Source of the DNA: Bacteroidales bacterium
GTDB taxonomy: Bacteria > Bacteroidota > Bacteroidia > Bacteroidales > UBA932
Length of the DNA: 64,000 nt
Assembly: GCA_017427385.1 (NCBI GenBank)
Contig: JAFRSW010000019.1
Span: 186,001-250,000, forward strand
Direction of reading: 5' to 3'
Of this stretch, positions 2,871 to 45,727 are shown in pieces. The position numbers and the translations under genes are program-made. The notes below the pieces were generated by a model. The model worked only from the letters and a program-made list of their open reading frames with translations. It did not search any database and was not told the origin of the DNA. The first letter of the stretch is position 1; each line of letters begins with the position of its first letter.

Positions 2871-5636
2871 ATGAAAAGATTTATCAAAATGATTTCAGCA
2901 GCGGCCGCCCTCCTCATCGGACTGGGCGCCTACGCGCAGGATTACGGCACTGCCGCGGTCAGTACCGCCACCGGCGACGACCTCTACAAGCGCGTGGAGA
3001 CCAACCTCACCAACACTTTCACCGGGGCATTCACCGGGCTGACCGTACTCCACGGCACCGGGGAACCCGGCAGCAACACTGCGAGTTACCTCATCCGCGG
3101 AATGGGCAGCTACGGCCTCGGCACATGGAACCAGGCCCGACTGTTCGTGGACGGATTCGAGGTGAACATAGATTATCTCACGTCCATCTCCCCGGCCGAA
3201 ATCGAGACGGTCGAGGTGCTGAAGGATGCCGCAGCTCTCGCAATCTATGGCGAGAAGGGCGCCAACGGCGTCATCAGCATCACGACCCGCAGGGGAGTGG
3301 AGGGGAAGTCGAAGGTGAATGCCCGCGTCCGCTATGGAGTGCAGACCCCGGCCCTTCTGAACAAGCCCCTGGGCTCGTACGATTATGCCAATCTCTACAA
3401 CCAGGCGGTCTCCAACGACAAGGGGATGGTCTGGTCGCCGGTCTATAGCCAGGCGCAGCTGGATGCCTATCGCGATGGCAGCGGCACAAACACCGACTGG
3501 TATGCCCAGGCCCTGAAAGGCAGCGGCAGCTTCATGGATGCCGACATAATCCTTAATGGAGGATCCAAGGCCGCCCGCTACAACATCAACCTCGACTACC
3601 TTGGCAACAAGGGCCTGCTGAACGCGGCGGATACCGACAGCACCCGCAATCTCGGCTACCAGCGCTTCAACGTGAGGGCCAACCTCGACTTCAACGTGCT
3701 GAAGGTCTTCGAGGTGAAGATGGATATCGGCGGACGCATCGAGACCCTGCACCGCCCAAACTACAGCACGTCCTCGCTGTTCACCAACCTGGCCAAGTAT
3801 CCTTCCAACATATACGGAGTGTACGACGATGACGCCCACACGCACTACAGCGGCACTGGCGTCTATCCCAACAATCCCTACGCCTCGGTGAACGGCCTCG
3901 GCTGGTATTCGGTGAAGGCAAGGAGCCTGCAGACCAACCTTTCCGTGAAGGAGCGTCTGGATATGTTGACGGAAGGCCTCTGGCTGGAGCAGGCAGTGTC
4001 GTTCTACAGCTACACGCTGAGCACCTGGGCCAAGACGCGCAACTATGCGCGCTGGTTCGGCGGCGCCACCACGACCACCGACGAGACCACCTCCCTCACC
4101 GCCAGCGGATACGGCTCCGCCGGCATGCAGGACTGGAAACAGGGCCGCCTGACGGCGGGATACGACCGCAGCTTCGGCGAGCATCACCTGACCGCCCGCC
4201 TGAACTACGGCATCTCCGCCTATAAGGGCGACGGCTACTTCTCGTTCAAGTACAACACACTGAACCTGAACGGCCTGGTGCAGTACGACTATGCCAAGCG
4301 CTACATTGCGGAGCTGGGTTTCTCGGAGTTCGGCAACGATGCCTTCGCTCCCGGCCACCGCTGGCACTTCTATCCGGCCGTTTCGGCCGCCTGGATACTC
4401 TCCAACGAAGACTTCCTGAAGGGCTCCGGCCTGGTGCAGTTCCTCAAGCTGCGCGCATCCGCCGGCCTGACCGGCTTCTCGGAATCGAAGGCCACCAACA
4501 TCCTGAACGATTTCAACTCCAACGGCCGCTATCTCTATAAAGATTATTACACCTATAGCTACATCGGTGCCTTCTACATGGGCTCGCCTTCTGCCGAATG
4601 GCAGAACAGCCTGGTGCCCATGTTCACTCCCAACGAAGACATCGGCCCGGAAAAGAGCCTCAAGCTCAACATCGGCGTGGATGCCACCCTGTTCGGCGGC
4701 CTCAAGCTCACCGCGGATGCCTTCCTGGACCACCGCACCGACATCCTCACCCTGGACAAGTCCCTCATGGGCTACTACGGCAAGCAGTATTCCTTCTCCA
4801 ACATAGGAGAGATGCTGAGCCGCGGCTTCGAGCTGTCGGCAGATTATTCCGGCAAGGCCGGTGAGCTGCGCTACAGCGCCGGTGGATCCATCTCCTACGC
4901 CACCAACACTATCGTGAACATGGCGGAAGTGCCGCCGGCGAACGCCTTCAGCGCCTCCACCGGCAGGCCCTACGGCACCTTCATCGGCCTCGTGGCGGAC
5001 GGATTCTATCAGGTTCAGGACTTCGACGACGACGGCCGCCTGCTGCCCGGCCTGCCCACACCCGCATTCGGCGCGGTGCAGCCGGGAGACGTGAAATACC
5101 GCGACCTGGACGGCAATACCGTCATCGACCAGAACGACATCACCCGCATTGGCCGCAGCTGGATTCCGGAATGGAACTTCAGCTTCGGAGGCAAACTCGC
5201 CTGGCGCAAGTTCGACGCCGAAATCCTATTCCAGGGAGTGGCCGGAGTATCGGTCAATCTGCTGGACAACTGGAACCAGACGGTGGCGTTCATCGACAAC
5301 GGCAACGCCTATGCGATAGCCAAGGGCGCCTGGGCCTACTACCCGATGGAGGGTATAGACAACCGCGCCAACGCGACCTATCCGCGCCTGACTACCCAGG
5401 GCAACCAGAACAACTACCGCCTGAGCACACTGTGGCTCAAGGACGGATCCTTCATCAAACTCCGCAACCTGGAGTTCGGCTACACTTTCAAAGAAGGTAT
5501 GCGCTGCTTCATCAACGGGCAGAACCTTCTGACATTCAGTCCGCTGCAGAGCCAGTACAACATCGATCCGGAGAACGCCTCCGGGCTGTACCCCCAGCTC
5601 CGCAGCTTCAACGCAGGCATTTCGTTAACCTTCTAA
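2871..5636 (+). CDS. SusC/RagA-family TonB-dependent transporter, short form without N-terminal carboxypeptidase-like domain
   Basis: This is a 921-residue outer-membrane importer. A signal peptide (MKRFIKMISAAAALLIGLGAYAQ, cleaved after AYA or AQ) is followed almost at once by the plug domain: DDLYKRVETNLTNTFTGAF, then YLIRGMGSYG, LFVDGFEVN, and the classical VEVLKDAAALAIYGEKGANG with VISITTRRG near residues 115-140. The barrel runs to the end and closes on AGISLTF. Most SusC proteins carry an extra domain of about 80-90 residues (carboxypeptidase-regulatory-like) before the plug and are about 1,000-1,100 residues long; that domain is absent here. The start is supported by the strong ribosome binding site and the good signal peptide. 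A susD gene follows 12 bases later. Confidence 0.92.
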   Translation: MKRFIKMISAAAALLIGLGAYAQDYGTAAVSTATGDDLYKRVETNLTNTFTGAFTGLTVLHGTGEPGSNTASYLIRGMGSYGLGTWNQARLFVDGFEVNIDYLTSISPAEIETVEVLKDAAALAIYGEKGANGVISITTRRGVEGKSKVNARVRYGVQTPALLNKPLGSYDYANLYNQAVSNDKGMVWSPVYSQAQLDAYRDGSGTNTDWYAQALKGSGSFMDADIILNGGSKAARYNINLDYLGNKGLLNAADTDSTRNLGYQRFNVRANLDFNVLKVFEVKMDIGGRIETLHRPNYSTSSLFTNLAKYPSNIYGVYDDDAHTHYSGTGVYPNNPYASVNGLGWYSVKARSLQTNLSVKERLDMLTEGLWLEQAVSFYSYTLSTWAKTRNYARWFGGATTTTDETTSLTASGYGSAGMQDWKQGRLTAGYDRSFGEHHLTARLNYGISAYKGDGYFSFKYNTLNLNGLVQYDYAKRYIAELGFSEFGNDAFAPGHRWHFYPAVSAAWILSNEDFLKGSGLVQFLKLRASAGLTGFSESKATNILNDFNSNGRYLYKDYYTYSYIGAFYMGSPSAEWQNSLVPMFTPNEDIGPEKSLKLNIGVDATLFGGLKLTADAFLDHRTDILTLDKSLMGYYGKQYSFSNIGEMLSRGFELSADYSGKAGELRYSAGGSISYATNTIVNMAEVPPANAFSASTGRPYGTFIGLVADGFYQVQDFDDDGRLLPGLPTPAFGAVQPGDVKYRDLDGNTVIDQNDITRIGRSWIPEWNFSFGGKLAWRKFDAEILFQGVAGVSVNLLDNWNQTVAFIDNGNAYAIAKGAWAYYPMEGIDNRANATYPRLTTQGNQNNYRLSTLWLKDGSFIKLRNLEFGYTFKEGMRCFINGQNLLTFSPLQSQYNIDPENASGLYPQLRSFNAGISLTF

Positions 5637-27990: not shown

Positions 27991-28018
27991 GGCGTCTGGT
28001 ACATTTGCACCAGAGGCT
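27991..28018 (+). other. Hairpin with embedded -7-like element between xseA and xseB
   Basis: GTCTGGT and ACCAGA form a short stem around ACATTTGC, extended outward after a mismatch. TACATTTG at 28000-28007 inside it matches the TAnnTTTG element, without a clear -33. It could be a weak promoter for xseB or an RNA processing structure. There is no T-tract, so a terminator is unlikely. Confidence 0.35.
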
Positions 28019-28048
28019 TTCAAGTAATATGCTGATTTACAGGTAATT

Positions 28049-38961: not shown

Positions 38962-40054
38962 GATACTTGCTCTGGCCGCTTTCGTGATTGCTGCCGCCGC
39001 CTGCCAGGGAGGCAAGGCCACCGTGGATTGCACCGTGGCGGATGCACCTTCTACTGCACTGCTTCTCAAGCAGTTGAACGGCACTACACCCGTTACCTTG
39101 GACACTGTAAAGACCGATGCTGCCGGTCATTTCAGCTATAAGGTTAAGGTCGCAGAGGGCAATCCTGAATTCGTTTATGTCTACAATGGAGACACCCGCC
39201 TGGCTTCGCTCCTCCTGGAAAAGGGGGAGAAAGCTGTTGTAGAAGCAGATACCCTTGGCAACTACAGTGTGTCCGGTTCTGCCGGAAGCGCGCTTCTGAA
39301 AGAGGGAGATGATGCATTCCGTGCCTATGTGGGCAACCTGATAGCTCTCTCAGAGGCCGGTGCAGCCCCTTCGGAGATAGCCAAGGAATATGTGCGCCAT
39401 TATCGCGAAGCTGTCAGGTTCGTGGTGGTGAACAACAAGTCGTTGGCTGTCATTCCCGTGCTCTACGAGAATATCGGCGGCGGAACCGGTACTTTCTCCG
39501 GAGCAAGTGATGCACTCATTTTCCGCAGTGCCTGCGATTCGCTCAAAACCGTTTATCCTAACTCTAAGTATGTTAAGGGTCTGGAACAGGAAGCCCAGCG
39601 CCGCATCAATCTTTTCGAGCTTTCCAATCGCATGAAGACTGCCGAGGAGAGGGTCTATCCCAATGTGAAGATGCCTTCCGTGAACGGCACTGCTGCCGAG
39701 ATCGACAGCCTGGATGCCAAGGCGATCCTGGTTTATTTCTGGGACGACCGCGAAGCTACCCACAAGATTTTCAATCTGGATGTGCTGAAGCCTGTTTATG
39801 AAAAGTATCAGGCCCGCGGCCTCGAGATCTATGCAATCAGTGTGGATCCCGACAAGGCTGCCTGGGCACAGGTCGTAAAGTCTCAGGAACTGCCCTGGAT
39901 CAACGTAAACGACGGTCTCGGCACCGCCAGCCGTTCGCTCTATACCTTCAACGTCGCTGCCGTTCCCGCCATGATCCTCCTCACCGATTCCGGCATGGAC
40001 TTCATATCGGGTGAAAAGCAGCTGCGCGCTAAGATTGAAAAGGCGCTAAAATAG
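38948..40054 (+). CDS. Thioredoxin-like lipoprotein lacking the CXXC active site
   Basis: This is a 368-residue lipoprotein. MKSFKILALAAFVIAAAAC gives a signal and lipobox. An N-terminal DUF4369-like beta domain (about 25-115: AGHFSYKVKVAEGNPEFVYVY) is followed by a helical linker and a C-terminal TlpA/thioredoxin-like domain (from about 225). The position where TlpA proteins have FWASWCGPC reads YFWDDREATHK (about residues 262-272), so no catalytic Cys pair is present. The cis-Pro region (FNVAAVPAMILLTDSG) is kept. It may be a non-redox binding or scaffold protein on the periplasmic side. Its stop overlaps the tsaB stop region on the other strand by nine bases. Confidence 0.85.
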   Translation: MKSFKILALAAFVIAAAACQGGKATVDCTVADAPSTALLLKQLNGTTPVTLDTVKTDAAGHFSYKVKVAEGNPEFVYVYNGDTRLASLLLEKGEKAVVEADTLGNYSVSGSAGSALLKEGDDAFRAYVGNLIALSEAGAAPSEIAKEYVRHYREAVRFVVVNNKSLAVIPVLYENIGGGTGTFSGASDALIFRSACDSLKTVYPNSKYVKGLEQEAQRRINLFELSNRMKTAEERVYPNVKMPSVNGTAAEIDSLDAKAILVYFWDDREATHKIFNLDVLKPVYEKYQARGLEIYAISVDPDKAAWAQVVKSQELPWINVNDGLGTASRSLYTFNVAAVPAMILLTDSGMDFISGEKQLRAKIEKALK

Positions 40055-40765
40055 TTTTTTCGGAGTAGTTGCGATAAACTGCTTCAGATAGAAGGGTTCG
40101 AAGTACGCTACGTCTTCGAACTCTTTTTTTGCGTATTTAGCCATGGCCGGCGCCAGCATAGCAGTGGCTTCGGGGCATGTTTGGATGAAGGAGATTCCTT
40201 CGCTGCGCTCGGAATGACAGGTGGTGGGCTCGGAATGACAGTTCTTAAATTTTTCTGCCGCATCGCCGATGACGGCTACGGGGCCGGAGGCGAAGATGTC
40301 GGCGAAGCTGTTTTCGTCGAGGACGACGGGGGAGATATCCGTCTGTCGTTCGCCGGTAGGGGAGAATACCGCGGTATAGACCTCCATGCGGCGGGCATCC
40401 ACCATAGGGAGAATGGCTTTGCAGCCTTCGGGAATACCGGCCTCGATGGCCTGGTGGGCGAGGATCTCGAGGGTATCTACCGCTATCAGCGGCAGGTTTC
40501 CGCCGAAGCACAGGCCCTTGGCAGTGGAAACTCCCACGCGAAGCCCGGTGTAGGACCCGGGCCCCTTGCTCACGCATACGGCATCCAGGTCGCGTACCGT
40601 CCATCCGGCCTCATCCAGCATCTCCTTCACGAACACGGCTGTGAGCGATGCATGCGCACGAGGTTCGGAGCTCCTGCGGCTGCAGACTATTCGTCCGTCT
40701 TCCGCCAGGGCGGTGGAGCAGAGGGATGTGGAAGTCTCTATGAAGATGAGCCTAGACATTGGCAA
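40046..40765 (-). CDS. tsaB: tRNA threonylcarbamoyladenosine biosynthesis protein TsaB
   Basis: This is a 239-residue ASKHA-fold partner of TsaD, required for the t6A37 modification of ANN-decoding tRNAs. The start LIFIETSTSLCSTAL, the SKGPGSYTGLRVGVSTAKGLCFG segment and ILPMVDARRMEVYTAVF are diagnostic. The ATG at 40759 (MSRLIFIE) is an alternative start to 40765. Between about residues 175 and 200 it contains NCHSEPTTCHSERSEGISF, an insert encoded by one full and one partial copy of a repeat also found in ileS. The gene overlaps cvpA upstream by 14 bases, so the two are probably co-transcribed. Confidence 0.93.
   Translation of the reverse strand: MPMSRLIFIETSTSLCSTALAEDGRIVCSRRSSEPRAHASLTAVFVKEMLDEAGWTVRDLDAVCVSKGPGSYTGLRVGVSTAKGLCFGGNLPLIAVDTLEILAHQAIEAGIPEGCKAILPMVDARRMEVYTAVFSPTGERQTDISPVVLDENSFADIFASGPVAVIGDAAEKFKNCHSEPTTCHSERSEGISFIQTCPEATAMLAPAMAKYAKKEFEDVAYFEPFYLKQFIATTPKKLF
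40191..40219 (-). repeat. 29-base CHSERS-encoding repeat, full copy in tsaB
   Basis: Read on the minus strand it starts TGTCATTCCGAGCGCAGCG and ends AGGAATCTC. It matches the copy in ileS (43556-43584) at 27 of 29 positions. The ATTCC and GGAAT ends are complementary and could form a small hairpin. It is in frame with tsaB and adds CHSERSEGIS. Confidence 0.85.
40228..40240 (-). repeat. Partial copy of the CHSERS repeat in tsaB
   Basis: The minus strand reads TGTCATTCCGAGC, identical to the first 13 bases of the full repeat, eight bases upstream of it in the reading direction of tsaB. It encodes CHSEP in the same frame as the full copy, consistent with a tandem or nested insertion. Confidence 0.75.
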
Positions 40766-41246
40766 TCAATTCTTTGAGGAAGGGGAATACCTTCATCGAA
40801 AGACCATGAAGGAAGGAGTAAATCGCTGATGCGTCAAGCACTTCCGGCTTAACCAGATTTAATTTCGCGTTGATAGGGTCGAAAATAAAGATAAGCAGCC
40901 CGATTATCAAAGCAGCCTTGAGCAGGGCGAACACCAGCCCCAGCAGGCGGTTTGCCCAGCCCAGGGATGCCATCTTAAGGGTCTTGGTAATGAGTTTACC
41001 GATTAGATTCAGAATCAGAACGGTAAAGATAACCGTCAGCGCGAAAGCGCAGATATTTATAATTTTTGGATCTACCTGAAGGTATCCGTTCAGCCACTCG
41101 GCGAGGGTGGAAGAGAAGTGGAATGCGGCCCAGACGCCCACCAGAAGGGATGCCAGCGACACCAGTTGTTCCACCAGTCCTTTGCTTATGCCGGTAATGA
41201 TCGCCGGCACGAAACATACAAGGAGGATAATATCTAAAGTTTCCAA
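40752..41246 (-). CDS. cvpA: CvpA-family membrane protein (TTG start)
   Basis: This is a 164-residue inner-membrane protein with four predicted helices: DIILLVCFVPAIITGISKG, LVSLASLLVGVWAAFHF, INICAFALTVIFTVLILNLIG and LLGLVFALLKAALIIGLLIFIF. The LDIILL start and the GLVEQLVSLASLLVGVWAA segment are typical of the CvpA/colicin V production family. The only reasonable start codon is TTG at 41246; there is an in-frame stop about 25 codons or fewer upstream and no nearby ATG. It leads tsaB with a 14-base overlap. Function in this group is not clear. Confidence 0.85.
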   Translation of the reverse strand: METLDIILLVCFVPAIITGISKGLVEQLVSLASLLVGVWAAFHFSSTLAEWLNGYLQVDPKIINICAFALTVIFTVLILNLIGKLITKTLKMASLGWANRLLGLVFALLKAALIIGLLIFIFDPINAKLNLVKPEVLDASAIYSFLHGLSMKVFPFLKELIANV

Positions 41247-41255
41247 AGAATTGAT

Positions 41256-41263
41256 TATATTTG
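41256..41263 (+). promoter_or_regulatory. ileS: Putative -7 element for ileS
   Basis: TATATTTG matches TAnnTTTG and lies 36 bases before the ileS ATG. No good -33 TTTG is visible. It overlaps the divergent cvpA promoter region. Confidence 0.5.
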
Positions 41264-41281
41264 TAAACTATTTAACAAGCA

Positions 41282-41311
41282 CAAATTTAGCGAAAAATTA
41301 TGACATTCAAA
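41282..41311 (-). promoter_or_regulatory. Putative promoter for cvpA-tsaB
   Basis: On the minus strand TTTG (41311-41308), 18 bases, then TAAATTTG (41289-41282). The -33 element lies within the first codons of ileS. It gives a leader of about 30 bases before the TTG start at 41246. Confidence 0.5.
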
Positions 41312-44300
41312 GAATATAAGGGTCTGGACCTGGTAGCGACGGGAAACCGTGTGCTGGAGCGTTGGAAAGAGCACAAGGCCTTCGAGAAGAGCCTTGAACT
41401 TGCAGAAGGGGAGCCGGAGTACATTTTCTTTGAAGGTCCCCCGTCGGCAAACGGCATGCCCGGCATCCACCACGTGATGGCGCGTTCCATCAAGGATGCC
41501 ATCTGCCGCTACAAGAGCCAGACGGGTTGGAAGGTGCGCCGCCGCGCAGGATGGGATACCCACGGCCTTCCCGTGGAACTCGGCGTGGAGAAGAAACTCG
41601 GCATCACCAAGGCCGACATCGGCACCAAGATTTCGATAGAAGAATACAACAACACCTGCCGCAAGGAGGTGATGAAATACACGGCCGAATGGGAGAACCT
41701 GACGGAGCGCGTAGGTTACTGGGTGGATATGAACGATCCCTACATCACCTATGACAACCGCTACATCGAAACCCTTTGGTACCTTCTCAAGAAGATATAC
41801 GACAAGGGCCTCCTTTATAAGGGATACACCATTCAGCCTTACAGCCCCACCGACGGCACCGGCCTCAGCTCCCATGAGCTGAACCAGCCCGGATGCTACC
41901 GCGATGTGACCGATACGACCGCCACCGTGCAGTTTGAGGTCATCCGCGACGCTGCATCCGAAAAGCTTTTTGGCGAAGGCCCCGTCTATATCCTGGCATG
42001 GACCACCACCCCCTGGACCCTTCCTTCCAATACCGCGCTCTGCGTCGGCCCGAAGATAGAATACGTGAGGGTGAAATCCACCAACCAGTACACCGGCAAG
42101 GAGGCCGTTTACGTGCTGGCGAAGGAACTCGTGGGCGCCTGGTTCAACGATAAGATCGCCTACGAAGTTCTCCCTGGCACTCTCAAGGGCAGTGAACTCG
42201 TGGGCATACGCTACAAGCAGCTGATCCCCTGGTTCAAGCCGGACGGAAAGGCTTTCGAGGTCATCCCCGGAGACTATGTCACCACCGAAGACGGTACCGG
42301 CATAGTGCACATCGCACCTTCATTCGGTGCGGATGATAAGCGCGTGGCCGCCGCTGCAGGCATCGTGGGCATCATGCCCGTGGACCGCAACGGTAACTTG
42401 ATGGCCCAGGTGGATACCCAGGGCCGTTTCGTGCGTGTGGAGGATCTCGATCCGGCATACGCTGCCTCGAGCGTGGATGCATCCTACAATGAGTATGCAG
42501 GCAGGTATGTCAAGAACGCGATAGACGATTACTTCCGCAAGCTGCACGGTGAGGATCTCCTTCCGAAGGATGCTCCTGTGCTGGATGTGGACCTTTGCGT
42601 GATGATGAAGCAGGACGGCCGCCTCTTCCGCATGCAGAAGCATGTTCACAGCTATCCTCATAGCTGGCGCACCGACTGCCCCGTCATCTACTATCCCCTC
42701 GACTCCTGGTTCATCAAGACCACGGCCGTGAAGGATGAGATGGTGGCCCTGAATAAGCAGATCACCTGGAAGCCGGAATCCACCGGCACCGGCCGCTTCG
42801 GCGTGTGGCTCGAAAACATCCAGGACTGGAACCTCAGCCGCAGCCGCTTCTGGGGCACGCCGTTGCCTATCTGGCGCACCGAAGATGGCAAAGAAGAGAT
42901 ATGCATAGGCAGCGTGAAGGAACTCTATGCCGAGATAGAAAAGGCTGTGGCCGCAGGTGTCATGCCTTCCAATCCTCTGAAGGACAAGGGCTTCGACCCT
43001 GCCGACATGGGCAAGGCCAACTACGACCGCATCGATCTCCACAGACCCTATGTGGACAACATCTTCCTCGTCAGCCCTTCGGGCAGGAAGATGACCCGCG
43101 AGACCGACCTCATCGACGTCTGGTTCGATTCGGGTTCCATGCCTTACGCCCAGACAGGCCTCCGTGGCATCGACAGCCCTGATTTCGGCATCACCGCCGA
43201 CTTTATCGCCGAAGGTGTCGACCAGACCCGCGGATGGTTCTATACCCTGCACGCCGTCCACACCATGGTGAGCGGCACTCCCGCTTTCAAGCGCGTGATT
43301 TCCAACGGCCTGGTGCTCGACAAGGACGGCAACAAGATGAGCAAGCGCCTCGGCAATGCCGTGGATCCTTTCAAGGCCCTCGACACCTACGGCGCGGATG
43401 CCCTGCGCTGGTACATGCTCACGAACGCCCAGCCCTGGGACAACCTTCGTTTCGACGAGGGCGGCGTCGACGAGATACGGCGTAAGTTCTTCGGCACGCT
43501 CTATAATACTTATTCGTTCTTTGCTCTCTATGCCAACGTAGACGGTTGGACACCCTGTCATTCCGAGCGAAGCGTAGGAATCTCAGAAACAGATAAGTGG
43601 ATCATATCGCTGAAGAACAGCTTGATCCGCGACGTGCGCGCAGCATACGAAGACTACGACATCACCCTCGCAGGGCGCCTCATACAGACCTTCGTCTGCG
43701 ACCATCTCTCCAACTGGTACGTGCGCCTGAACCGCAAGCGCTTCTGGGGAGGCGGGCTCACGCCGGACAAGCAGGCGGCCTACCAGACCCTCTACGACGT
43801 GCTGAAGACCGTTACCCTTCTGGCAGCGCCGATCGCTCCATTCTACACCGACGAACTCTGGCTCGACCTGGTTCCGGGTGCCGAGTGCGTGCACTTCGAG
43901 AAGATGCCTGAGGCCGATGAATCCCTAATCGACCGCGACCTGGAGGAGCGCATGGAACTGGCCCAGAAGGCTACTTCGCTGGTGCTGGCACTCCGCCGCA
44001 AGGTGAACATCAAGGTCCGCCAGCCGCTGGCCAAGATGCTCATCCCTGTCATATCCGACAAGGTTCGCGAGCAGCTCGAAGGGGTGAAGAACCTGATACT
44101 TACCGAGGTGAATGTCAAGGAGGCCGAGTTCCTTTCGGACACCACCGGCATCATCACTAAGAAGATAAAACCCAATTTCCGTGTGCTCGGCAAGAAGTAC
44201 GGTGCGCAGATGAAGGAAATCGCCGCTGCGTTCGGCTCGCTGGACCAGGCAACCATCTCCGCCATCCAGGCGTCCGCCGAATACACACTGGCGCTGCCGT

Positions 44301-44686
44301 CCGGCCCTGTGGTGCTGACTCCGGAAGATTACGAAATAACCTCCGAGGACATGCCCGGATGGCTCGTGGCATCCGAAGGCCAGCTCACCATCGCCTTGGA
44401 TATCCAGCTGAGCGATGCGCTGGTACGTGAGGGTACGGCCCGCGAACTCATCAACCGCATCCAGAACCTCCGCAAGGACAGTGGCTTCGAGGTGACGGAC
44501 AAGATAGACGTGGAGATAGCTGCGGAAGGCGATGCCGCCGACGAGATTGCAGCTTCGCTTACTGATTATAAAGACTATATCGCTTCCCAGACCCTCGCAT
44601 TGTCGGTCGCGCTCGTACCCGGGTGCGACGGCGCTGCGGTGGAGTGGAACGACAGCACAATAAAGATAAAAGTAATACGAAAATAG
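41300..44686 (+). CDS. ileS: Isoleucyl-tRNA synthetase
   Basis: This is a 1128-residue class I aminoacyl-tRNA synthetase. The HIGH-type motif is PPSANGMPGIHH (about 50-61), with the long CP1 editing domain following (WTTTPWTLPSNTALCVGP, DGTGIVHIAPSFGADD), then IQDWNLSRSRFWGTPLPIW, and the KMSKS motif as KMSKRLGN near residue 681. The C-terminal part holds the anticodon-binding helices and a DUF5915-like tail. The residues PCHSERSVGISE in the linker between the catalytic core and the anticodon domain (about 753-764) are encoded by a repeat also present in tsaB. The length is close to other Bacteroidota enzymes. It is followed seven bases later by the dksA-like gene. Confidence 0.97.
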   Translation: MTFKEYKGLDLVATGNRVLERWKEHKAFEKSLELAEGEPEYIFFEGPPSANGMPGIHHVMARSIKDAICRYKSQTGWKVRRRAGWDTHGLPVELGVEKKLGITKADIGTKISIEEYNNTCRKEVMKYTAEWENLTERVGYWVDMNDPYITYDNRYIETLWYLLKKIYDKGLLYKGYTIQPYSPTDGTGLSSHELNQPGCYRDVTDTTATVQFEVIRDAASEKLFGEGPVYILAWTTTPWTLPSNTALCVGPKIEYVRVKSTNQYTGKEAVYVLAKELVGAWFNDKIAYEVLPGTLKGSELVGIRYKQLIPWFKPDGKAFEVIPGDYVTTEDGTGIVHIAPSFGADDKRVAAAAGIVGIMPVDRNGNLMAQVDTQGRFVRVEDLDPAYAASSVDASYNEYAGRYVKNAIDDYFRKLHGEDLLPKDAPVLDVDLCVMMKQDGRLFRMQKHVHSYPHSWRTDCPVIYYPLDSWFIKTTAVKDEMVALNKQITWKPESTGTGRFGVWLENIQDWNLSRSRFWGTPLPIWRTEDGKEEICIGSVKELYAEIEKAVAAGVMPSNPLKDKGFDPADMGKANYDRIDLHRPYVDNIFLVSPSGRKMTRETDLIDVWFDSGSMPYAQTGLRGIDSPDFGITADFIAEGVDQTRGWFYTLHAVHTMVSGTPAFKRVISNGLVLDKDGNKMSKRLGNAVDPFKALDTYGADALRWYMLTNAQPWDNLRFDEGGVDEIRRKFFGTLYNTYSFFALYANVDGWTPCHSERSVGISETDKWIISLKNSLIRDVRAAYEDYDITLAGRLIQTFVCDHLSNWYVRLNRKRFWGGGLTPDKQAAYQTLYDVLKTVTLLAAPIAPFYTDELWLDLVPGAECVHFEKMPEADESLIDRDLEERMELAQKATSLVLALRRKVNIKVRQPLAKMLIPVISDKVREQLEGVKNLILTEVNVKEAEFLSDTTGIITKKIKPNFRVLGKKYGAQMKEIAAAFGSLDQATISAIQASAEYTLALPSGPVVLTPEDYEITSEDMPGWLVASEGQLTIALDIQLSDALVREGTARELINRIQNLRKDSGFEVTDKIDVEIAAEGDAADEIAASLTDYKDYIASQTLALSVALVPGCDGAAVEWNDSTIKIKVIRK
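43556..43584 (+). repeat. 29-base CHSERS-encoding repeat in ileS
   Basis: It starts TGTCATTCCGAGCGAAGCG and ends AGGAATCTC, in frame with ileS, giving CHSERSVGIS. It matches the tsaB copy at 27 of 29 positions. It lies in a variable linker of the enzyme, where an insertion should be tolerated. Confidence 0.85.
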
Positions 44687-45637: not shown

Positions 45638-45663
45638 AGGCTGTTGATAATCAAGCAATTAAG

Positions 45664-45700
45664 CAAAACCGTCTGGTACAAACGTACCAGACGGTTTTGT
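45664..45700. terminator. Bidirectional terminator between lspA and the beta-barrel gene
   Basis: A 16-base-pair perfect stem, 45664-45679 with 45684-45699, and an AAAC loop. The A-run and T-run at the base (AAAACCGTCTGG ... CCAGACGGTTTT) give a T-tract in both directions, ending lspA on the plus strand and the gene at 45728 on the minus strand. Confidence 0.85.
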
Positions 45701-45727
45701 GTAACTCCCTGATAATCAGGGGATGTT

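Follow-up and report, generated by a model that had tools for sequence, protein, structure and literature searches.

A TGTC-headed palindromic repeat read in frame within tsaB and ileS of a Bacteroidales bacterium: very probably a mobile hairpin of the repetitive extragenic palindromic type

Two repeat units in tsaB and ileS

We examined a 64,000-nucleotide stretch of a Bacteroidales genome (assembly GCA_017427385.1, contig JAFRSW010000019.1, positions 186,001 to 250,000; referred to below as the window), in which a short palindromic unit, here called the TGTC repeat after its first four bases, lies in frame within two genes. Called genes cover 56,889 of the 64,000 window bases (89%). The two hosts are tsaB (40046..40765, minus strand; NCBIfam equivalog TIGR03725) and ileS (41300..44686, plus strand; NCBIfam equivalog TIGR00392), both of which are essential genes. 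The tsaB unit occupies 40191..40219 on the minus strand and reads TGTCATTCCGAGCGCAGCGAAGGAATCTC, and the ileS unit occupies 43556..43584 on the plus strand and reads TGTCATTCCGAGCGAAGCGTAGGAATCTC. A preliminary description of this DNA had placed two 29-mers sharing 27 of 29 bases at these positions, and both the placement and the identity were confirmed. Both units are translated in frame +0, giving the same-frame CHSERS-type peptides that it had pointed out, namely CHSERSEGIS in TsaB and CHSERSVGIS in IleS. A search with the unit pattern (≤3 mismatches) returned these 2 matches in the window versus 0 in 100 shuffled sequences. In IleS, the Pfam match of the catalytic domain runs to residue 717 and the anticodon-binding domain starts at residue 765; the unit lies in the interval between them.

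Adjacent to the tsaB unit is a head-only half-unit, TGTCATTCCGAGC (40228..40240, minus strand), which starts 21 bases upstream of the full unit and is exactly the 13-base partial copy reported earlier; the TsaB codons for CHSEPTTCHSERSEGIS span 40190..40240 (minus strand). A lone 13-mer of this kind is not above chance in the window (3 seen versus 2.33 expected at ≤2 mismatches).

A dispersed unit with a covarying stem

The genome to which the window belongs (G000; 1.93 Mb in 22 contigs, 77.75% complete and resembling a metagenome-assembled genome, or MAG) carries the repeat well beyond these two sites: we found 40 copies at ≤3 mismatches, with 0 for a reversed control, and 45 copies when a 27-base core was used as the query. 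The unit is about 27–29 bases long, since the flanks of the copies look unrelated apart from partial units. It consists of a TGTC head, a stem (ATTCC/GGAAT plus GC/GC) with GA-rich mismatches between the two parts, a GAA triloop and a short tail, for which CTC, CTA, CTG, CTT, CCA, CCG, CCC and CGA were all seen. The loop accordingly has 3 bases, a number that rises to 12 when the two inner pairs do not form. The head is present in 40/40 listed copies, as retrieved by a search pattern that itself demanded TGTC (≤3 mismatches allowed), and lies outside the covarying stem.

In terms of secondary structure, the partial complementarity of the ends that had been noted previously is borne out by covariation. 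Specifically, among 58 distinct units from seven genomes, standard pairs are formed in 95.6% of the cells of the stem (positions 5–9/22–26 and 12–13/17–18), and in 6 of the 7 pairs both partners have changed in a compensatory manner (12 cells versus 1.5 in shuffles, with 0 of 500 shuffles as high; relatedness of the sequences can inflate a result measured against this control, as the tool itself warns). When the partner strand was slid as a control, pairing fell to at most 58% of cells. The outermost pair, A5–T26, is the one without a compensatory change, being formed in 47 of the 58 units and failing in 9, and the next, T6–A25, is formed in 54.

The half-unit beside the tsaB copy is one of many such heads. 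Within 150 bases upstream of the 45 copies in the window's genome there are 7 direct head matches, versus 0.009 per 150 bases in control stretches; six of these are 18–21 bases off, and the seventh, 39 bases off, is part of a full unit. Downstream there is 1 direct head, 6 copies have their tail repeated downstream, and 2 inverted heads were also found. Counted by orientation, neighboring heads within 150 bases comprise 2 head-to-head, 0 tail-to-tail and 8 direct arrangements in this genome, and 29 head-to-head, 1 tail-to-tail and 37 direct (20 upstream, 17 downstream) around 54 copies in a repeat-rich congener, G006, with controls of 0.002–0.03 per 150 bases. The 21-base spacing recurs within and beyond called genes. 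Partial units also form in-frame tandem arrays, with 21-base heads (VIPTFPD repeats) in polA of G006 (L259) and 18-base tails (SEAKES x4) in a GH127 gene (L027, G000:C2). At four G006 loci (L234, L264, L265, L266) an inverted second variant lies ahead of the in-gene unit, so that DPFVADAPRDD or ISPRASLGRDD is read in front of VIPSEAKES.

Copies within genes and their reading frames

The genes tsaB and ileS are no special hosts; the repeat occurs in at least 24 genes. At least 28 of the 45 copies in the window's genome (62%) lie in 24 Pfam-recognized genes, and 15 of 54 copies in G006 lie in 14 such genes. Set against the 89% gene coverage of the window, the figure of 62% indicates that genes are hit below the level of random landing, as expected if many hits have been purged. 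A strict rule, which required a single open frame across the unit and codon use typical of coding sequence on either side of it, placed 20/45 copies of the window's genome and 20/54 of G006 in genes, and a second caller placed 25/45 and 30/54. Pfam recognized 18/18 of the open reading frames (ORFs) that the strict rule gave in the window's genome and 14/16 of those submitted from G006 (of 19); ten further ORFs of the window's genome, picked by eye, gave 9 Pfam hits, of which 7 were counted, and a second atpG copy was added. The G006 counts leave aside 2 of 56 copies, which were not fetched, and three short frames that were not sent to Pfam (L242, L249, L252). Also uncounted are L084 and L230, where Pfam hits exist and the unit lies before the likely start, and L021, L245 and L255, which had no Pfam hit.

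Besides tsaB and ileS, the hosts in the window's genome are genes for a SpoU-type methyltransferase, an SLT-LysM protein, a Porin_10 protein, a GHMP kinase, an MFS transporter and a second MFS-type transporter, a DUF3575 protein and a GH127 enzyme, together with metG, an rsmF-like gene, mutL, atpG (2 copies), pbpC (2 copies, treated as a single gene because L010 and L025 overlap), aroB, a radical SAM gene, an OstA-like gene (3 copies), rpsB, purD, atpF, truA, polA and a ComEC-type gene. For three of these hosts (rpsB, purD and atpF) the unit lies close to the C-terminus.

Five of the six consensus frames are open when read from the sequence, and their use is strongly skewed. Among 43 Pfam-supported copies from the two genomes, VIPSEAKES was read 30 times, CHSERSE 7 times, the reverse frame DSFASLGMT 5 times, SFRAKRRN once and the reverse frame FLRFARND never. 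These counts (7/30/1/5/0) depart from equal use with a chi-square p of about 2e-14, and the antisense share (5/43, versus an expected 0.4) gives p of about 4e-5, with the 43 copies lying in 38 genes and thus not being fully independent. The sole SFRAKRRN copy is found at the extreme N-terminus of pbpC, before a hydrophobic stretch. We read the frame skew as a probable result of selection against basic or hydrophobic inserts.

The boundaries of genes are also touched by the repeat. In pbpC (L010:1551 downward, G000:C1) the likely start codon is composed of an A and the TG of a half-unit, directly after a stop codon, and the repeat encodes a basic N-terminus. Units with the tail TCTA (L015, L022, L085, L088) appear to supply a TAG stop to the gene on the opposite strand, and other units, at L017, L018, L023, L029, L086 and L231, start 0–2 bases past a called stop and 2–25 bases before the next gene.

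Host linkers in TsaB, IleS and other proteins

With respect to orthologues, the peptide is close to absent from TsaB outside the window's genome. It was found once among 108 other rows, as the degenerate CHSGRSKG in genome G192 (some species are present twice, and three rows were missed by the regular expression), and in 0/29 others in a separate alignment. The TsaB segment is longer in the window's genome, by 9 extra alignment columns and by 6 to 12 residues relative to five near relatives. In an AlphaFold2 model of TsaB with a mean predicted local distance difference test (pLDDT) of 88.6, residues 178–186 (model numbering), which lie within the repeat peptide stretch, score below 50, and the peptide is thus modeled, at low confidence, as if disordered.

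Among 106 distinct IleS linker DNAs, that of the window included, 4 carry a relative of the repeat, 2 carry an unrelated second repeat (SATGKGPVRVPQGEPGTGIA or similar) and 100 carry neither by the motifs used. The four are the window's own copy, another variant in G062, a unit in the VIPSAAKES frame preceded by a half-unit (L223), and two units head to head (L227); the latter three, out of 105 other distinct linkers, differ from the window unit in sequence or frame. To judge from these sequences, the IleS linker has been occupied repeatedly, by variants of the TGTC repeat and by an unrelated repeat. The linker is 18 residues long in the window's IleS, 19 in 80 of the 106 distinct linkers and 20 in another IleS with a variant unit, with a range of 17 to 45 among the nearest relatives, and when the ileS unit is aligned with the equivalent linker in a solved IleRS structure (8c8w), the gap is a single residue. 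The earlier term "insert" is therefore not strictly accurate for IleS, where the repeat has not lengthened the linker.

Other hosts were compared in the same manner. MetG has gained about 13 residues, and the neighborhood of the unit in TruA is 14 residues longer than in 1dj0. The metG and rsmF alignments covered nine near relatives, one of them only partly for each gene. Among the eight read for metG, 3 lack an insert, 4 hold the second repeat and 1 has only a short remnant; the window genome's own metG encodes PSATGS followed by the TGTC repeat. Of the eight read for rsmF, 1 (G192) has a degenerate TGTC repeat copy at the same point. The second repeat (peptide SATGKGPVRVPQGEPGTGIA, ends complementary by eye) is itself dispersed: 8 of 10 genomes have it, at 51 places in all, and one of these places is in the window's genome (G000:C18:262034-262067). 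It occupies TsaB, IleS and MetG linkers at L120, L134, L150, L278, L280, L283 and L286, and by eye the atpG of the window's genome seems to hold a degenerate copy of it beside the TGTC repeat.

Distribution among relatives

Exact matches to the 14-base head were found in 106 of 300 congeners, at 1–58 per genome and at 21–58 in eight of them. Among near relatives (G192, G109, G145, G195, G191) there are 0–3 exact heads; with mismatches allowed, G069 has 18 full-length copies and G109 has 8. In one gene comparison across the congeners, 90 of the 300 genomes were not scored. Beyond the genus, 24 genomes of the order were searched, and one gave 2 weak matches. Among named TsaB records, those closest to the window's come from rumen Bacteroidales MAGs; Candidatus Cryptobacteroides records appear among 80 loci retrieved, and the TsaB linker of one of them (L211) is identical to that of a congener (L052). 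The window's genome probably belongs to Candidatus Cryptobacteroides. Because the element is lineage-specific, the repeat load is probably recent. Carriage by viruses or plasmids was considered and rejected, as nothing in the viral, phage or plasmid records points to a vector: viral contigs gave 0 exact matches, phage records one place at 93%, and plasmids two records at 92%.

Search for a mover

We next consider whether the repeat could be mobilized in trans by the genome's own Y1/HUH transposase of the REP-associated tyrosine transposase (RAYT) type, as is thought for GTAG REPs, where REP denotes a repetitive extragenic palindromic sequence. Candidate enzymes are present, since PF01797 (Y1_Tnp) matches number 3 in the window's genome (one below the Pfam cut-off) and 6 in G006, and the general layout of head, mismatched stem and tail is that of a REP. 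Furthermore, copies in the window's genome tend to CT boundaries, with a C before TGTC in 33/45 and a T after the final C of the 27-mer in 33/45; CT is also where E. coli TnpA-REP cuts, on the 5′ or the 3′ side of the REP (PMC8266576). The preference for C does not extend to G006, where it precedes 15/54 heads. A pyrimidine-rich target site was rejected, all that was seen being a C preference just before the head in the window's genome.

The flanks of the transposase genes argue against this link. Each Y1_Tnp gene of the window's genome has its own repeat on either side, which is palindromic for the genes at C4 and C18 and, for the gene at C2, is a direct repeat of 91 bases that forms a hairpin, and the same holds for 3 of the 5 genes examined (of eight found) in G006 and G003, the other two having only weak flank matches. 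The regions retrieved around the C4 and C18 genes contain no TGTC repeat, and about 4 kb separate the C2 gene from its closest copy. Y1_Tnp loci were also examined in nine other congeners (30 loci) and in more distant genomes (8 loci); 2 of these hold a relaxed match (4 mismatches). G076, which is 98% complete, lacks any PF01797 match yet contains 21 exact heads and 5 full-length copies; as proof of independence from Y1 genes, however, it is weakened by having only 5 full-length copies. A RAYT link was therefore rejected for the Y1_Tnp genes examined in the window's and related genomes, none of which the TGTC repeat flanks; the search for a REP-associated transposase suggested in the preliminary description thus turned up such genes, whose own flanks are formed by other repeats. 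These results have a defined scope, in that the association was examined for Y1_Tnp genes alone, 22% of the window's genome is missing, and Y1 profile matches in the genus are weak (about 20–44 bits), such that a divergent member could be missed. On balance we consider mobilization in trans by a Y1 enzyme a possible and rather doubtful account.

The repeats that do accompany Y1_Tnp genes at L069, L071, L072, L074 and L079 differ from gene to gene and are mostly palindromic. One of this kind is represented in the window by a 74-base palindrome after lspA (45645-45718), which also lies on both sides of the Y1_Tnp (RAYT-type) gene at G000:C18 (L070:2955-3047, 4073-4154). The C18 gene thus appears to be accompanied by a cognate repeat of its own, one copy of which lies in the window. 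A weaker piece of the same palindrome is at 27993-28020.

Discussion

Taken together, our observations are best explained by a mobile REP-type hairpin that is tolerated in host proteins, a reading that we hold to be very likely and in which the 29-mer represents one unit of a REP-type element that is non-autonomous. This supports the core of the preliminary description, which had proposed a mobile palindromic repeat tolerated as a peptide insert, with the patchy distribution suggesting movement. We propose that a TGTC unit has multiplied to about 45 copies in the lineage of the window's genome, having been moved by an unlinked enzyme acting on single-stranded DNA or copied at replication forks. 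Copies within genes would persist only at a flexible linker or a terminus, and in a frame giving a mild polar peptide: VIPSEAKES first, CHSERSEGIS next and DSFASLGMT on the other strand, whereas the basic readings SFRAKRRN and FLRFARND are hardly ever retained. The unit would be read as part of a linker in TsaB and IleS, and the proteins would be made with the peptide. The unit is probably read as a harmless flexible linker in housekeeping proteins generally, and for TsaB and IleS the consequence is most likely neutral.

Several observations weigh against this interpretation. The single-strand fold energy is no better than that of shuffles (z-scores −0.8 to 0.4); it was accordingly dropped as evidence for the hairpin, and covariation alone was retained. 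The low confidence of the TsaB peptide is matched by that of the C-terminal residues 226–238, with equally low pLDDT, and may partly reflect the absence of the peptide from the aligned relatives. There is no net gain of length in ileS, where the repeat took the place of linker residues, and the SpoU-type methyltransferase is ungapped relative to PDB chain 9h1k across the repeat. No clean pair of empty and filled close strains was found for metG and rsmF among the nine near relatives, the linkers being hypervariable, and near relatives examined diverge by ≥10% in the queried genes. Without a clean empty site, no target-site duplication was readable. Finally, copies called between co-directional genes also favor the direction of the genes (16 versus 4), so that selection on the peptide is not the whole account of the strand skew; L010 and perhaps L021 of these 16 lie in genes after all, and the bias persists without them.

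The unchanged lengths of the IleS linker, also seen in the 20-residue linker of the variant-unit IleS, and of the SpoU-type methyltransferase would be accommodated by spread through copying over resident DNA, in which template switching or fragment annealing at a replication fork overwrites the linker with little change of length. Partial units, with heads alone and tails alone in tandem, fit such a process as well. However, TsaB, MetG and the TruA neighborhood gained length, and insertion followed by deletion, or slippage, gives the same picture as overwriting; we therefore regard this alternative as improbable. A broader version, to which we give similarly little credence, holds that linkers in the genus are recurrent landing pads overwritten in turn by unrelated mobile hairpins via patch-wise copying of whole units, heads or tails. 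If it were true, essential proteins would gain new linkers from selfish DNA without the usual transposase.

That the peptide could be a selected functional motif, for example a Cys-His metal or regulatory site common to TsaB and IleS, is suggested by the reading of CHSER in the same frame from both window copies. The same DNA gives VIPSEAKES, DSFASLGMT or SFRAKRRN in other genes, it is the DNA and not the peptide that is conserved, with compensatory changes in the stem, and nearly all orthologues lack the peptide, which in TsaB falls in a region of low model confidence; we find this explanation very hard to sustain. An assembly artefact or metagenome-bin chimaera, to which a MAG-like genome in 22 contigs at 78% completeness could be prone, is scarcely credible given that the 45 copies differ in their flanks, that many lie in open frames of recognizable genes, that a separate genome (G192) has the degenerate tsaB copy and one in rsmF, and that the repeat is shorter than a sequencing read.

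The mobile REP-type hairpin favored here can be compared with known systems, of which the closest is the CGTC-tagged REP superfamily (Di Nocera et al. 2013, PMC3733652; compared here from part of its text), whose members enter genes, have no linked transposase and are known in Bacteroidetes. On the basis of sequence features, the TGTC repeat may be filed as a variant of this superfamily outside its four published families, because its stem and loop lengths differ. Shared features are an unpaired head, which is often TGTC in the CGTC REPs; a short unpaired tail; A/T complementarity in the first two pairs of the stem (A5–T26 and T6–A25 here); head-to-head neighbors, as in the 29 of G006; intragenic units, including ones in tRNA synthetases and pseudouridine synthases; and the lack of an associated transposase gene, which here refers to Y1_Tnp genes. 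In contrast, the stem has 5+2 pairs with mismatches rather than 8–9 pairs, and the loop is 3 bases (12 if the inner pairs are unformed) rather than 4–5, although PMC3733652 notes exceptions. The CGTC REP tail is 3 bases and mostly CCA; the tails seen here include CCA along with CTC, CTA and others. Among CGTC REP dimers head-to-head is dominant, tail-to-tail rare and head-to-tail negligible, whereas direct neighbors of the TGTC repeat are frequent (8 in the window's genome, 37 in G006), and more than half of the copies in the window's genome are intragenic, while most known REPs are intergenic according to the same source.

Other families are less similar. Like Rickettsia palindromic elements (RPE), the TGTC repeat is palindromic and lies in frame within conserved protein genes, here as judged from sequence, but the RPE described in the portion of PMC2229807 consulted are 105–146 bases with a long stem-loop, and RPE-4 and RPE-6 are themselves CGTC REPs (PMC3733652, in part). 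A Rickettsia guanylate kinase bearing an RPE is reported to be translated and active, with changed substrate affinity (PMC2229807, same portion), and by analogy may serve as a tested precedent for the tolerance of such inserts. With GTAG REPs and REPINs (REP doublets forming hairpins) served by RAYT (TnpA-REP), the repeat shares a short mismatched hairpin, a conserved head and lineage-specific amplification; it differs in having TGTC and not GTAG as its head, and no Y1 gene flanked by it was found among the loci examined. Miniature inverted-repeat transposable elements (MITEs) are likewise non-autonomous, dispersed and readable in frame. The suggestion that the unit is MITE-like was nonetheless not upheld, as its 27–29 bases are far below the roughly 100–200 bases given in the consulted part of PMC2229807 and no target duplication was seen. 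In the open-access literature, no paper was found for the peptides or the DNA head string.

Overall, the genome is genuinely and heavily loaded with a selfish hairpin of known type, protein-coding repeats being known in other bacteria; what is new here is the host group, the proportion of intragenic copies, the uneven frame use and the fact that different repeats have repeatedly occupied the same linkers. For annotation, stretches such as CHSERSE, VIPSEAKES and DSFASLGMT should be treated as repeat DNA and not as conserved motifs. The system could aid the search for the mover of transposase-less REPs, a question raised in the part of PMC3733652 drawn on above. Many of the host genes serve translation, replication and cell-wall synthesis, and with some hundreds of sister species of differing content, tolerance of a random 9–10 residue insertion becomes measurable by frame and by protein site.

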